Source: Acidobacteriota bacterium (lineage in GTDB: Bacteria > Acidobacteriota > Terriglobia > Acidiferrales > UBA7541). Taken from it: 62,639 nucleotides of DNA. The stretch lies in the NCBI GenBank assembly GCA_003154775.1, contig PMES01000072.1, positions 74,888 through 137,526 on the forward strand, read 5' to 3'. The notes below the pieces were generated by a model. The model saw nothing but the letters and a program-made list of their open reading frames with translations. It did no database searches and had not been told where the DNA came from. The first letter of the stretch is position 1. Each line of letters opens with the position of its first letter. Positions 2,468 through 61,332 of the stretch are shown in pieces. The position numbers and the translations under genes were made by a program.

Positions 2468-3325
2468 GTGCAGGGATTAGCTGGCAGATGGTTGTTGGTG
2501 TGGCTGATTGTCTTGATGGCCGTTCCTCTGGGTGCGAGCCACCGGGCAGGTGGGTATCCCGCCTCTTCGCTGCAACCTGCCACGATTCGCGCGTTCGAGA
2601 ATTATGTGGCGGCGACGGAAACGCGATTGGGAAAAAGCCTGACGCAAGCAGATTTCTTCTGGGTTGACGAGCTGGCGAAGCAAGAGAAAGAGGAAGCGTA
2701 CGAAAGGTTGAAAAGCGGCAAGGTCGAGCTACGGCACGTGAGCCGGGAGGAAGCTGGGGGGAGCAGCGCGATCCCCGGAGGAATGATCCACGACTGGCAG
2801 GGGATGGTGTTCATACCCGGCGTGAAACTGGATGAGGTATTGAAGCTGTTGCAAGACTACGATCACCACGCGACGTACTACGCACCAGATGTGGAAAGGG
2901 CCAGAATCGAAGCACACGACGGCGATCATTTTCGCGTCTTCATGAGGTTTCGCCGGAAGAAGATCCTCACCGTAGTGCTGAATACGGAGCAGGAAATCAC
3001 CTACTATCGCGATTCGCCGACGCGGGCACACAGCCGGAGTTCGGCGATCCGCATCGCAGAAGTGGAAAATGCGGGGACGCCGGAAGAGCAGGAAAAAACG
3101 CCGGGTAACGACAACGGCTTTATGTGGCGGCTGGAGACGTGGTGGCGAATGGAGGAGCGGGATGGCGGCGTGTACGTCCAGAATGAGGCGGTAAGTTTGA
3201 CGCGCGACATTCCCGGCGTACTGGCCTGGATGATCGAGCCTTTCCTGACGAGCATCCCCAAAGAATCGCTGGAAATGACGCTGGAAGCGACGCGACGGGG
3301 AGTGCTGGGCCGGAAGGGGCGTTAG
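2468..3325 (+). CDS. Secreted conserved protein, function unknown
   Basis: This 285-residue protein starts at GTG 2468, just after AGGACAG. It has an N-terminal signal peptide (about residues 7-24: W-L-L-V-W-L-I-V-L-M-A-V-P-L-G). The rest is a soluble mixed alpha/beta domain with no cysteine motif and no recognised catalytic signature. Patterns such as I-H-D-W-Q-G-M-V-F-I-P-G and the repeated beta segments ending in an amphipathic helix are loosely like lipid- or ligand-binding START/SRPBCC folds, but this is only a guess. Its stop lies 8 bases from the stop of the convergent acyltransferase gene, so the two transcripts meet tail to tail. Confidence 0.7.
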   Translation: MQGLAGRWLLVWLIVLMAVPLGASHRAGGYPASSLQPATIRAFENYVAATETRLGKSLTQADFFWVDELAKQEKEEAYERLKSGKVELRHVSREEAGGSSAIPGGMIHDWQGMVFIPGVKLDEVLKLLQDYDHHATYYAPDVERARIEAHDGDHFRVFMRFRRKKILTVVLNTEQEITYYRDSPTRAHSRSSAIRIAEVENAGTPEEQEKTPGNDNGFMWRLETWWRMEERDGGVYVQNEAVSLTRDIPGVLAWMIEPFLTSIPKESLEMTLEATRRGVLGRKGR

Positions 3326-3333
3326 GGACGAGA

Positions 3334-4551
3334 CTAGACAGAAATCTGCTCACCCCTCTTAGCAAATCTGTATTTGCGGGTATGACCACGATGAATCAAG
3401 GGATGCTCAAAGAAATGCCAGGAGAGCTTCGCGAGAAGGAGCGTGAGCAGAAAAGCGAGGAAAGAGATTGAGGCAGCCGCAGGAGTAGCGATGCTAGGGC
3501 GCTGATGGCGAAGCAGGGCATGGCAGAGACCGAGAAGCAGAAGATGAATCAGATAGATGCAGTAGGAAAGGCGGCCCATCTCTCGCAAGAAGGACCATTG
3601 GAGAAAACGGCTCCAAAGCCCGCGGGGCTCCAATAGACACCAGAGAAGCAAACCAACATAAAAGAACGCGAGCCAGGAAAAACCGAGCGAGGCCATCCAG
3701 AAGGCATCCATGGCGAACAGCCACTTTGTGAAGACGGGCAAGCCCGAGAACAGGAACGCAAGAATGACGTAAAACGCGGTGCGGTGAGCCGCGTACCAGC
3801 TTTGGATGATGCCCTGGCGCCATAAGAGAGCGGCGAGCATGCCGATGGCGAGCGAGTCGGCACGGCAGGGCATCCAGACCGCAGCGTCGGTGCGGCCGGC
3901 GGGCCAGAGAAGGAGAACGGCGGTGCGCAAGAGTGGCGCCAGGCCGAGAGTGGCAAAGAGGACGGCTTTCAGACGAGAAATGGAAAGGAAGCGGACCAGT
4001 GGAGGGGAAATGAGGTAGAACTGCTCTTCAACCCCAAGTGACCAAGCCGGCGCAAGCCAGTACCATGCGAGGGAGGAGTGGGAGAGAACGAAGTAGTTTT
4101 GCAAAAAAAGAAAATAGATGGGGAGCAGGCGAAAATCTGCGGAGAGAACCGGCAGGTATCGCGAGAGGAAGCGGCCAAAGAAAAGAGAAACGACCGCGAA
4201 CAGAGACAACCAGGCGTAAAAAAGAGGGAGAATCCGAAAAAGCCGGCGAGTATAGAAGACGCTGAAATAGTTCTCGGCCCGACGGGCATCGAGAAGAATG
4301 CCGCCAATCAGAAATCCGGAAAGGACGAAGAACAGGTCCACACCGGACCAGCCAAGACGGAAGGCGCAACCGAAGCGATAAAGGAAACTGCCGAACGCGC
4401 CGTGCTCACTGTCGTTCAGATAATGAAGGGAGATCACGAGCAGGATGGCGACACCGCGGAGGCCATCGAGTTGGGGGACACGGCCCGCGAGGAAGGAAAG
4501 ATTCCGGGCTTGGGAGGAGGGAGAAACGGCGCGAGAGTGAAGGGAATCCAC
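3334..4551 (-). CDS. Acyltransferase family 3 (OafA/YrhL-type) membrane protein
   Basis: This 405-residue integral membrane protein has about ten hydrophobic segments. The N-terminal family signature is clear: P-Q-L-D-G-L-R-G-V-A-I-L-L-V near residue 27, then the conserved His of the I-S-L-H-Y element. W-S-G-V-D-L-F-F-V-L-S-G-F-L-I-G-G follows, and later W-S-L-G-V-E-E-Q-F-Y. Members move acetyl or other acyl groups onto sugars of surface polysaccharides or glycolipids across the inner membrane. It sits at the downstream end of the minus-strand glycosyltransferase cluster, 289 bases after the methyltransferase, so decoration of that polysaccharide is the natural inference. Length is within the normal range for the family. 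Confidence 0.92.
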   Translation of the reverse strand: MDSLHSRAVSPSSQARNLSFLAGRVPQLDGLRGVAILLVISLHYLNDSEHGAFGSFLYRFGCAFRLGWSGVDLFFVLSGFLIGGILLDARRAENYFSVFYTRRLFRILPLFYAWLSLFAVVSLFFGRFLSRYLPVLSADFRLLPIYFLFLQNYFVLSHSSLAWYWLAPAWSLGVEEQFYLISPPLVRFLSISRLKAVLFATLGLAPLLRTAVLLLWPAGRTDAAVWMPCRADSLAIGMLAALLWRQGIIQSWYAAHRTAFYVILAFLFSGLPVFTKWLFAMDAFWMASLGFSWLAFFYVGLLLWCLLEPRGLWSRFLQWSFLREMGRLSYCIYLIHLLLLGLCHALLRHQRPSIATPAAASISFLAFLLTLLLAKLSWHFFEHPLIHRGHTRKYRFAKRGEQISV

Positions 4552-4840: not shown

Positions 4841-5737
4841 CTAGCCGCCGGGACCTCGAGAAGCGCCGGCAATGTGAATGGAGTTCTTCAGAAGGGGGTG
4901 CTCGAGTAGCGCCTGCGTTTTCTTGTAAACCTCTTCGGAATCCACGCGCAGACAAAGCATCACGGTGCCCTCAATCTGGAATACGGGAAGTTCGCGGGCG
5001 AGCCATTCCCAGAATCGCGTGGGCCCCTCGGCAGTACTGTAGTCGTGGCGCAAGATGACGCCACCCGGCTTGACCACGGAAAAAGCCTGATAGGCTTCCG
5101 CGGCAAGCCCCGGCATGCGGTCGCAGGCATCGCAGAAGACGAGCTCGGCAGAAGCGCGATAAGGCCGGTAATCCCAGGAGTCCACGCTGGCGAAGATCTG
5201 TTTGATTCTGGTTTTGGCCGGTTGATCCCAGTAGAAAAAGCCGACTTCGTTCTGGCCGGGAACCGGCGGCAAATCGAGAGTGATGATCTCGCCACCAGGA
5301 GGAAGGTGCAGGGCAATATTCAGCGCCGTGCGCCCTTCCGCAGTGCCAAATTCGACCACGCGCTTCGCCTTCAGGTGGTCCACCACCTTCGTCAGGACGA
5401 TCAGTTCCTGTGGAAGCACGCCGAGATTGCGGGGAAAAGGAAAGAGCAGTTCGGGCGAACGGGTGCAGTCCATTCCAGGGAAAAGCTCGTCGATTTTTCT
5501 CGAGGGAATTTTGAGATCATTCCGCCAAGGCAATCGCTGCCACAGGTGGGGCAACCCAAAGCCGGAGTACAAATGATAGGAGTGGGAGACAAAGCTGAGG
5601 GCAGCGGAAGGACCATTGCGCAACAGGACGCGGAGAGAATTCAAGTTGAGGGAAGAGAGAGCCCGGGCGACGCGCTGAACCGAGGAGGGGTGAGAAGCGA
5701 GATGGTCCAAGGAGTGGTCTTTGGTGAGATCGGCCAT
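4841..5737 (-). CDS. SAM-dependent class I methyltransferase
   Basis: The product is 298 residues from ATG 5737; a GTG at 5779 would add 14 residues. A Rossmann methyltransferase core begins at about residue 125 with V-V-E-F-G-T-A-E-G-R-T (SAM-binding motif I), then I-I-T-L-D-L-P (acidic loop binding the ribose) and L-V-F-C-D-A-C-D (motif IV region). It ends with G-G-V-I-L-R-H-D-Y. This resembles the Methyltransf_24 group often seen in polysaccharide loci. Its place between a GT4 glycosyltransferase and an acyltransferase suggests it methylates a sugar of the same glycan. The acceptor cannot be read from the sequence. Confidence 0.82.
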   Translation of the reverse strand: MADLTKDHSLDHLASHPSSVQRVARALSSLNLNSLRVLLRNGPSAALSFVSHSYHLYSGFGLPHLWQRLPWRNDLKIPSRKIDELFPGMDCTRSPELLFPFPRNLGVLPQELIVLTKVVDHLKAKRVVEFGTAEGRTALNIALHLPPGGEIITLDLPPVPGQNEVGFFYWDQPAKTRIKQIFASVDSWDYRPYRASAELVFCDACDRMPGLAAEAYQAFSVVKPGGVILRHDYSTAEGPTRFWEWLARELPVFQIEGTVMLCLRVDSEEVYKKTQALLEHPLLKNSIHIAGASRGPGG

Positions 5738-60198: not shown

Positions 60199-60553
60199 GG
60201 TGGATTCCGTCTGTGCGGCGTGGCGGGGACGCGGCATCGCAAGAATGTTAGATGCAGAATCTGCAAGGGTCAATACGCAGCGCCGGGTGGGTGATGCTCT
60301 AAATGTGTGTTGCTGGTGGTGGTCTGGGGTAGAGGGGAGGCCATATTTTGGAAGGATCGGTACAGTGCCGTCCAAGAGGCTTCTTGCGAGACTCAGAAAA
60401 CGTAGCATTGCAACCGCTCAGGTAGGTCATGTGGCTTCTCCTCTTGTTTTTGTGCGGGAGAAGCCCGAAAATAAAAGTCTCGGGTTCAGGCTCGGACTAG
60501 CTCCGCGCTTGGATTCAGCCCCGCTTCTAGTTAGCGCTAGAGGCGGGGCACAT
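60199..60553. other. Intergenic stretch, nothing recognised
   Basis: No coding frame or structure could be supported here. It lies upstream of the LolA-like gene and downstream of the winged-helix-like gene, both on the minus strand. Confidence 0.4.
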
Positions 60554-60997
60554 TCATTTCATATCCGAAAGTTTTCCAAATTTACGTCGCCATCCGTACG
60601 TAAGGCCATCGTCACTTGTCGTAATCTCTTCGTTTTCCAACATTCTCTTCAATGTGGAATGGATACTCGCCATCACGTTCTTGTGGCCGCTAAGGTTCTG
60701 TCCGGCAGCTTTCAATTGCTCCTTGATTTCAACGGGAGTGAGTTTCTGGGGGTAGGCAGCGCGAAGAATTTCCCTGATACCGTCCGTAATTCCGATTGTC
60801 CTCAGTTCTCCCAGAACGCTGTCCCAAAAACTCCTCGGCTCGTTCGATTCCTTTGCGAGAGGCGCGAGCGATATGATGGCCTGCTTCAACTGAGCGATTT
60901 TCTGTTCAGTATCCTCTTGAAGTTCAAGCAAGCTATCAAGCTCCTTTCGCATCGTTTCGAGCATCTGTTTGTATTCTTGTTTAGTCACAGCATCCAC
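60554..60997 (-). CDS. Small coiled-coil plus helix-turn-helix-like protein
   Basis: The product is 147 residues from GTG 60997; a GTG at 60988 would shorten it by three. Residues about 5-48 form an amphipathic coiled coil (E-Y-K-Q-M-L-E-T-M-R-K-E-L...L-Q-E-D-T-E-Q-K-I-A-Q-L-K). Residues about 70-140 look like a winged helix: I-R-E-I-L-R-A-A, L-T-P-V-E-I-K-E-Q-L, V-M-A-S-I-H-S-T-L-K-R-M-L-E-N-E-E-I, D-D-G-L-T-Y-G-W. This suggests a DNA-binding regulator that dimerises by its N-terminus. It is divergent from another small gene with a shared inverted repeat between them. Confidence 0.7.
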   Translation of the reverse strand: MDAVTKQEYKQMLETMRKELDSLLELQEDTEQKIAQLKQAIISLAPLAKESNEPRSFWDSVLGELRTIGITDGIREILRAAYPQKLTPVEIKEQLKAAGQNLSGHKNVMASIHSTLKRMLENEEITTSDDGLTYGWRRKFGKLSDMK

Positions 60998-61030
60998 TCA
61001 ACTAAGGAGAACTATACTCCTGTGACTAAA
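60980..61030. promoter_or_regulatory. Divergent promoter region with an 11-bp inverted repeat
   Basis: Arms TTTAGTCACAG (60980-60990) and CTGTGACTAAA (61020-61030) are perfect and 29 bases apart. Each arm covers the first codons of one divergent gene (GTG ACT AAA on both strands). Between them is TATACT on the plus strand (61013-61018) and TATAGT on the minus strand (61011-61016), overlapping -10-like hexamers that would give very short or no leaders in both directions. Confidence 0.55.
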
Positions 61031-61033
61031 GTA

Positions 61034-61219
61034 ATGTCAACTAAAAAAGCTAATCGTTGCACTAATTCCTCCGACAAGGTACCGGTACTATCTCCTAATT
61101 GGGAATTGGCAATTGCGGACGCAGCGGAACAGATTGCTCAACTGCGAAGGTCAATCGAAATGTTCAAACACAACCTGAAGGTCGGGGTTCCGTTTCTGAC
61201 ATCAGCAACACGGAATTAG
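61034..61219 (+). CDS. Small protein of unknown function, divergent partner
   Basis: The product is 61 residues from ATG 61034; GTG 61022 would add four. A polar N-terminus is followed by L-S-P-N-W-E-L-A-I-A-D-A-A-E-Q-I-A-Q-L-R-R-S-I, an amphipathic helix. I recall short proteins with an S-P-x-W-x-x-A-I-x-x-A-x-x-x-I-x-x-L pattern in varied bacteria, sometimes beside regulators. It is divergent from the winged-helix-like gene, so joint regulation is likely. A toxin/antitoxin-like or regulator/partner arrangement is possible but unproven. From 61220 to 61332 I see nothing. Confidence 0.5.
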   Translation: MSTKKANRCTNSSDKVPVLSPNWELAIADAAEQIAQLRRSIEMFKHNLKVGVPFLTSATRN

Positions 61220-61332
61220 AGCAGTACCCGCCACTTGTTCATGTCACATTGCATGCGTTTTGGCCTTTCCGCAGGCTGTGAAGGCATGGTACGGATTAGC
61301 GGGCACTCTTCACACGCAGTGACCGCGCTCGA

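Follow-up and report, generated by a model that had tools for sequence, protein, structure and literature searches.

A divergent pair of small genes in a probable IS1-like transposon remnant recurs with two transposase families

Two small genes that point away from each other across one shared start region raise the question of what they control, and for whom. In the window, by which we mean the whole stretch of 62,639 nucleotides of acidobacterial DNA that was analysed, two small genes are indeed open and divergent, as had been claimed in an earlier note made from the DNA letters. The first gene encodes a protein with a coiled coil and a winged helix (wHTH) and lies on the minus strand at 60554..60988, giving 144 aa from GTG 60988 or 147 aa from the alternative GTG 60997. 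The second (the small gene) lies on the plus strand at 61022..61219 and gives 65 aa from GTG 61022 or 61 aa from ATG 61034. The start sites of both genes are less certain than the earlier note implied. The wHTH homologues (MTKETY.. or MAKREY..) align with a start at GTG 60988. For the small gene, AAGGAG is found 12 nt 5′ of GTG 61022 and favours this codon; in the alignment most homologues begin with MS.., which favours ATG 61034 (61 aa).

Homologues of both proteins were searched in related genomes, and all the genome counts given here include the window's own genome. The wHTH protein had matches in 8 of 61 genomes, and a 7-row profile of it gave 50 matches in 34 of 299 genomes of the class. 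For the small protein matches were obtained in 3 of 61 genomes, and a 13-row profile of it matched 25 of 399 genomes of the class (30 matches, E 1e-3) and 3 of 396 of the phylum (E 1e-4). Flanks were fetched for 48 of the 50 wHTH matches, two of these 48 having less than 50 nt upstream. With an HMM of the small protein, the divergent partner was found to adjoin the wHTH gene in 16 of the 48 fetched loci, window included; it may be noted that 12 of these 16 loci had themselves seeded the HMM. The 30 small-protein matches divide into 16 that were already in the set, 10 that were newly fetched and 4 weak ones inside long ORFs that were left out (G261:C6, G021:C4, G710:C15 and G006:C30). Six of the 10 newly fetched loci have an adjoining wHTH gene, and the other four are cut by a contig end near the start of the small gene. 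The pair is thus found as divergent neighbours in relatives, with 22 pairs in all including that of the window (16 + 6). At L011/L015 (G018) a weak small-protein match (HMM E 9e-4) has no wHTH match beside it. A separate clade of wHTH proteins (QEVVRxAHDELRQL.. and similar) is without an HMM match to the small gene (L056, L057, L059, L063, L065, L066, L068, L075, L077 and L084). Long similar flanks are common to L056, L057, L059 and L063, which suggests that these members may occupy a stable chromosomal place.

The earlier note had taken the layout to fit an autoregulated two-gene switch; in its full form this model is a stand-alone switch of the host with the 11-bp inverted repeat as its operator. 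The repeat itself could be confirmed, as the arms TTTAGTCACAG (60980-60990) and CTGTGACTAAA (61020-61030) match each other perfectly over both starts, and each contains GTG ACT AAA in frame with its gene. None of 100 shuffles of the 85-bp start region gave an 11-bp repeat. The whole window has 5 perfect repeats that measure 11 bp or longer and have a gap of at most 60; the number in each of 10 first-order Markov sequences was 0-3, with a mean of 1.2. On comparing the 22 pairs, a repeat of 11 bp was found in the window only. In L052 and L151 the repeats are of 8 bp (1 and 3 of 100 shuffles, respectively, are equally good), and in the remaining 19 of the 21 other pairs they are of 5-7 bp, close to the shuffled values, with at least 26 of 100 shuffles equally good. 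The 11-bp repeat was therefore rejected as a conserved operator. This striking repeat is private to the window copy.

The surroundings of the two genes give a different picture of the locus. A left terminal inverted repeat (TIR), GGTGATGCTCTAAATGTGTGTTG, is present at 60290..60312 on the plus strand, and the right TIR, GGTACTGCTCTAATTCCGTGTTG, at 61206..61228 on the minus strand (core read 61228-61206); the two agree in 21 of 26 positions if the next 3 bases are counted. In the window the right TIR supplies the last codons and the stop (61217-61219) of the small gene, and in L012 and L052 the TIR likewise holds its final codons. Just inside the left end, at 60299..60430 on the minus strand, lies a 43-codon ORF that is the remnant of the start of an IS1-type transposase, with about 30 recognisable residues by eye and a tblastn match of 68% over 22 residues (E 3e-5) to the transposase of L012. 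Most of the transposase gene is gone, so that only this ORF stands where a functional transposase would be. A degenerate TIR pattern, searched with at most 2 mismatches in the own 4.6-Mb genome, gave 3 matches, and both zero-mismatch ones are the window ends; the pattern was composed to fit these ends, and a backward control pattern gave 1 match. An IS1 remnant should still carry its TIRs, as the window copy does. No 8-bp target duplication was seen at the ends of the 939-bp window element, for which reason this copy is filed as a decayed remnant only and not as an element.

The stretch between the wHTH gene and the transposase remnant can be folded. A GC-rich hairpin at 60518..60549, with a T-rich tail on the plus strand, follows directly after the wHTH stop and precedes the remnant. 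A second hairpin lies on the minus strand at 60433..60465, GGCTTCTCC...GGAGAAGCC, and in it the Shine-Dalgarno sequence that belonged to the lost transposase would be base-paired. The 152-nt transposase leader folds 3.1 sd below its shuffles, none of 200 shuffles being as stable, and 2 terminator-like sites were found in the window element against 1.0 in shuffles. A similar GC-rich hairpin after the wHTH gene was seen by eye in L012, L052, L069, L070 and L089, and one covering the transposase Shine-Dalgarno sequence, also by eye, in L012, L069, L070 and L089. When the DNA of the window element was searched in 41 genomes, a single match was obtained outside its own genome, of 83 bp at 92% in G003, and it is located in the transposase leader that follows the wHTH gene. 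We consider it probable that 60290-61228 is a decayed IS1-like transposon that has lost nearly all of its transposase and kept both accessory genes, and that the pair most likely controls the transposon's own genes. This context had been missed by the earlier note.

Seven relatives have TIRs together with exact 8-bp duplications (by eye), and six of these carry the pair, four in the IS1-like group and two of the IS1595 type. They are L012 (1819 bp, duplication CTGGTTCA), L052 (2124 bp, CGAATTCA), L151 (2716 bp, TTCATTAA), L155 (863 bp, GATTAAGA), the IS1595-type L073 (2065 bp, GTTTAGTT) and L074 (2059 bp, AAAGAGTT), and L089 (2142 bp, CATCGCCG) with a wHTH gene and a transposase. The small ORF of L089 matches a short motif only and not the HMM, and L089 therefore stands outside the 22 pairs. 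In L155 the pair is alone between L012-like ends, and this element parallels the window copy. In L053 and L069 TIRs are present with no clean duplication.

The transposases beside the pair are of two families. An IS1-type transposase is found beside 9 of the 22 pairs (L012, L052, L053, L069, L070, L078, L151, L153 and L156) and an IS1595-type transposase beside 4 (L014, L072, L073 and L074); the window pair has the transposase remnant beside it and L155 has TIRs alone. No transposase or matched TIR pair was present in the available flanks of the other 7 (L013, L018, L060, L085, L086, L154 and L157), several of which end at a contig edge. The L012 transposase matches PF03400 with 31.7 bits, above the cut-off of 24.1, and PF13610 slightly better (33.6); its best NCBIfam match is NF033558, IS1, with E 2.4e-26 and 92.9 bits, under the cut-off of 100. 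Among the intact relatives the IS1 family is thus recognised by the transposase in L012 and by TIRs with 8-bp duplications in L012, L052, L089 and L151. The L014 transposase is of the IS1595 type (PF12762, E 8e-36; NF033547, E 6e-52), and those of L072, L073 and L074 are 70-85% identical to it (L073 72%, L074 70%). L073 and L074 have an ISXO2-like transposase, TIRs and an 8-bp duplication as in the IS1595 family, the family models having been run on the L014 protein.

An intact IS1-like element begins with one TIR and the small gene, which reads outward; then come the start region common to both genes, the wHTH gene, in certain copies a tRNA gene, and finally the transposase and the other TIR. 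In the IS1595-type elements the transposase lies downstream of the small gene, i.e. on the other side of the pair. Between the wHTH gene and the transposase of L151, L052 and L156, very short ORFs (about 16-23 codons) with many I, R and P residues were seen by eye. Conversely, when 30 IS1-type transposase loci of relatives were examined (1.5 kb on each side), the pair was present at 2, one of which is the query's own element; the module is hence optional and the elements do not need it.

These results bear on the stand-alone host switch, which we now regard as highly improbable. It would account for the perfect repeat on both starts, which shuffling did not reproduce, and for the winged-helix fold of one product. 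Against it, the repeat is absent from the 21 other pairs, the unit sits between transposon ends, and the distribution is sporadic for both proteins (the 34 of 299 and 25 of 399 genomes given above, own genome included). The reading was not borne out by the window either, where the pair sits in a transposon remnant.

What the two products are can be partly judged from models. The AlphaFold2 model of the wHTH protein (pLDDT 90) has a long helix at 3-45, then a short one, and after it a winged-helix domain at about 65-135, and the best rows of VIA-align are DNA-binding domains of the Fur family (Z 10.5, rmsd 1.7-2.1 over 67-68 residues). The coiled-coil winged-helix product proposed at the outset is supported by both. 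Only the wHTH part of this predicted structure (about 64-136) aligns with the Fur chains, and the Fur family is not among the Pfam matches of 18 wHTH members; further VIA-align rows (linker histones, Z-alpha domains) reflect a common fold only. Foldseek gave no match at E 0.001 or better, and a PDB sequence search gave mainly coiled-coil matches, which were set aside. Both proteins stayed below the curated cut-offs of the Pfam and NCBIfam families. The weak wHTH matches are DUF4404 (E 0.0015, 19.6 bits of 27) and HTH_69 (E 0.01), likewise set aside, and PHROG 1926 (E 0.003). The modelled fold suggests that the protein may bind DNA, and a likeness of fold shows no function. A phage or plasmid origin was also considered; the PHROGs matches were weak (best E 0.003), and the L013 wHTH protein gave no match by tblastn against a plasmid collection.

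For the small protein the AlphaFold2 model (pLDDT 78) consists of a low-confidence tail and one helix at 25-54, in agreement with the helical 61-residue product claimed earlier (61 or 65 aa depending on the start). An alignment of 13 sequences has the pattern W..AI.DA..I...RLR.AI..F....GEPWPG, with the seven-residue gaps that a coiled coil would have. A comparison of L073 with L074 gave a dN/dS of 0.10 (wHTH gene) and 0.24 (small gene), which indicates purifying selection on both proteins in this one close pair.

The region in which both genes start was analysed for promoters. In the window a putative wHTH promoter lies at 61011..61040 on the minus strand, with the −35 box TTGACA at 61040-61035, a spacer of 18 and the −10 box TATAGT at 61016-61011. 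It scores 11/12, and its −35 box overlaps the ATG TCA A of the small gene. The overlapping TATAGT (minus) and TATACT (plus) boxes that had been noticed are present at 61011-61018, with a matching −35 box for the minus-strand one only. The promoter scan of the window element found 1 site against 0.8 in shuffles, so this promoter is not significant alone and takes its weight from the relatives. From its position, the wHTH transcript would start near 61004, with a leader of about 7 nt (GTG 60997) or 16 nt (GTG 60988).

Under a strict leaderless test we counted a −35 box of at least 5/6, a spacer of 16-18 and a TANNNT ending 5-9 nt 5′ of an in-frame start, all in-frame start candidates being considered. 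Leaderless genes have been called by a TANNNT about 12 nt 5′ of the start, according to PMC3160421, and the geometry of our test is the same. The wHTH gene passes in 9 of 22 pairs against 0.19 expected from shuffles, the near but unpaired homologues in 1 of 6 (0.07 expected) and the control clade in 1 of 20 (0.04 expected). The window copy does not pass, as its −10 box TATAGT ends 13 nt before GTG 60997 and 22 nt before GTG 60988. In 18 of 22 pairs the 70 nt 5′ of the wHTH start contain a TTGAC, where shuffles predict 3.2, and in 11 of 22 it begins at −35 or −36, with some wHTH starts in these position counts chosen by the analyst among in-frame candidates. In 10 of the 14 pairs in which both genes could be placed, the wHTH gene has a −35 box of at least 5/6 that falls 7-20 nt into the small gene on the opposite strand, a count in which a wrong wHTH start was used for L070 and L072; L014 and L053 have only weak wHTH −35 boxes in the small gene.

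On the side of the small gene, GGAG was seen by eye 6-11 nt 5′ of the start in 10 of the 16 starts inspected, among which are L055 and L089 from outside the 22 pairs. The search between the two starts gave no good promoter for this gene, and no plus-strand site in the window reached 9/12; its transcript may therefore begin inside the wHTH gene. The idea that both genes are leaderless was rejected on these two grounds, the GGAG and the missing plus-strand promoter. Of the leaderless or near-leaderless layout proposed before, what stands is the placement of the wHTH promoter in many copies. The recurrent feature is accordingly a predicted sigma-70 promoter of the wHTH gene within the start of the small gene, often in leaderless placement.

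Such an overlap could also arise if the small ORF were not a protein gene at all and the conserved DNA were the wHTH promoter together with an antisense transcript. The −35 box does overlap the first codons in many pairs, and the reading frame of L012 is broken near its start. We find this explanation barely credible, given the pattern with seven-residue gaps shared by 13 sequences, the dN/dS of the small gene in L073/L074 and the confidently predicted helix, all of which speak for a protein. In the otherwise complete L012 the small gene has no nearby start codon in the frame of its conserved part, and around 4900-4940 ATGTCAAGA is present at the usual start place in another frame.

Besides the transposases, tRNA genes accompany the wHTH gene. 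On its strand and up to about 160 nt past its stop, a tRNA gene is found in 8 of 22 pairs (L014, L072, L073, L074, L078, L153, L154 and L157), and also in L055 and L061, which are not counted as pairs; the sequences of L085 and L086 end before the tRNA position. In the IS1595-type loci it is a long-armed tRNA with anticodon UGC downstream of the wHTH gene, at 4184-4271 (+) in L073, 3809-3896 (−) in L074, 2662-2749 (+) in L014 and 3505-3593 (−) in L072, for which ARAGORN calls tRNA-Ala (UGC) with a long variable arm. Such an arm is untypical of tRNA-Ala. The three distinct sequences of this tRNA keep 98.6% of pair cells, with two-sided changes in 9 of 24 pairs, and in L073 and L074 the tRNA lies inside the TIRs and target duplications. 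In L073 and L074, and also in L014 and L072, a basic ORF of about 40 codons (MAKTKKSPKGKRGPKEERL..) was seen by eye after the tRNA.

Rfam did not detect the long-armed tRNAs of L014, L061, L072 and L073, and placed those of L078, L153, L157, L055 and L154 above the tRNA gathering score. In L157 the wHTH gene is followed by two tRNA genes, both on the minus strand. The first (3087-3163) has the anticodon UUA at a lowered ARAGORN threshold and would read the stop codon UAA; the second (2992-3075), with anticodon GCA (Cys), is tRNA-Sec-like and scores just below the cut-off of the tRNA-Sec model. The others are Ser GCU in L078 (3796-3870, −; a 75-nt body with no long arm), Thr UGU in L153 (2611-2687, −), Cys GCA in L061 (3680-3771, −), and those of L055 (3557-3631, −) and L154 (1369-1444, +), whose anticodons are unclear in ARAGORN. 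A tRNA remnant downstream of the window wHTH gene was also considered; ARAGORN finds none there at the lowered threshold.

At the level of sequence, the comparison establishes the transposon context, the doubly read start region, the reappearance of the pair beside transposases of two families and, for one close pair of elements, purifying selection. Given these, we infer that control of the transposon's own genes would be the likeliest role of the pair. The wHTH protein would bind the shared start region and thereby repress or switch both arms, and hence whichever transposase lies downstream. The small coiled-coil protein would most likely pair with the coiled coil of the wHTH protein and modulate it. 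In several IS1-type copies read-through could be limited by the hairpins that separate the wHTH gene from the transposase, and these could also cover the Shine-Dalgarno sequence of the latter. As the window copy has lost its transposase, the switch there would be at most a leftover that still regulates itself.

An alternative is that the pair is passenger cargo that serves the host or enforces the keeping of the element, in the manner of addiction or defence genes, and that the transposase merely moves it. That the pair accompanies two transposase families and occurs on both sides of the transposase fits such a role, as does L155, where nothing other than the pair was recognised between the TIRs and the duplication is intact, and as does the window copy, which kept both ORFs open after the transposase was lost. 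We nevertheless think it unlikely. The Pfam, NCBIfam and PHROGs matches at E 1 or better include no toxin or antitoxin family, and no curated Pfam or NCBIfam cut-off was reached; the genes are divergent in 22 of 22 pairs, unlike the co-directional operons of type II toxin-antitoxin systems; and the fold of the wHTH protein suggests DNA binding. Control of the transposon's own genes remains our preferred role for the pair.

A broader version of this role can be put forward as a tentative possibility, which we would not yet favour. The pair may be a movable control cassette common to IS1-type and IS1595-type transposons, in which one stretch of about 50 bp is read twice, on one strand as the Shine-Dalgarno sequence, start and first codons of the small gene and on the other as the promoter of a leaderless wHTH mRNA. 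As the wHTH arm in many copies leads into a tRNA gene, in some cases with an anticodon unsuited to the tRNA body, these transposons would be a natural home of the orphan odd tRNAs known from soil bacteria, and translation may be the route by which the cassette tunes transposition.

The usual picture of a small insertion sequence is that of a transposase and two ends. An uncharacterised protein pair that recurs with two transposase families and with a shared, doubly read start region suggests that very small transposons may have dedicated regulation. In our literature search no description of the wHTH/small pair in transposons was recognised. The outcome for the window is a sobering one, as the feature there is a transposon fossil.

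On comparing with known systems, the IS1 family usually makes target duplications of 8-9 bp, and larger members that carry additional genes are said to belong to its ISMhu11 subgroup. The elements here resemble this family in the IS1-type transposase of L012, the short TIRs and the short target duplication. They differ from it in that the L012-type transposase is one long ORF with an NCBIfam score of 92.9 (below 100), and in the divergent wHTH/small module aboard. Some members of the IS1595 family have passenger genes. The ISXO2-like transposase of the L014 type and the 8-bp duplications of L073 and L074 agree with this family, unlike the wHTH/small pair and the tRNA gene that ride inside. As for the tRNAs, the review PMC7609411 describes odd tRNAs from soil bacteria whose variable arm is long and whose anticodon is at variance with the body, mentions that atypical tRNAs are possibly tied to transposable elements, and defines allo-tRNAs by 8/4 or 9/3 acceptor branches. 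Some of the tRNAs found here share the long arms and the anticodons unsuited to the body with those odd tRNAs, and unlike the allo-tRNAs so defined, the L073-type tRNA fits the tested 7/5 structure. The literature on such tRNAs concerns Acidobacteria, to which the hosts of the elements described here would belong. The linked tRNA genes offer a testable place to seek a function of atypical tRNAs. Finally, in Tn3-family transposons a toxin-antitoxin pair adjoins the transposition gene promoters and is possibly a component of the transposition module, according to PMC7157771. Those elements have another transposase, and the pair described here is divergent rather than co-directional and matched no toxin or antitoxin family in Pfam, NCBIfam or PHROGs; as a two-gene regulatory pair within a transposition module, the Tn3 arrangement set out there is nevertheless the nearest parallel recognised in our literature search.
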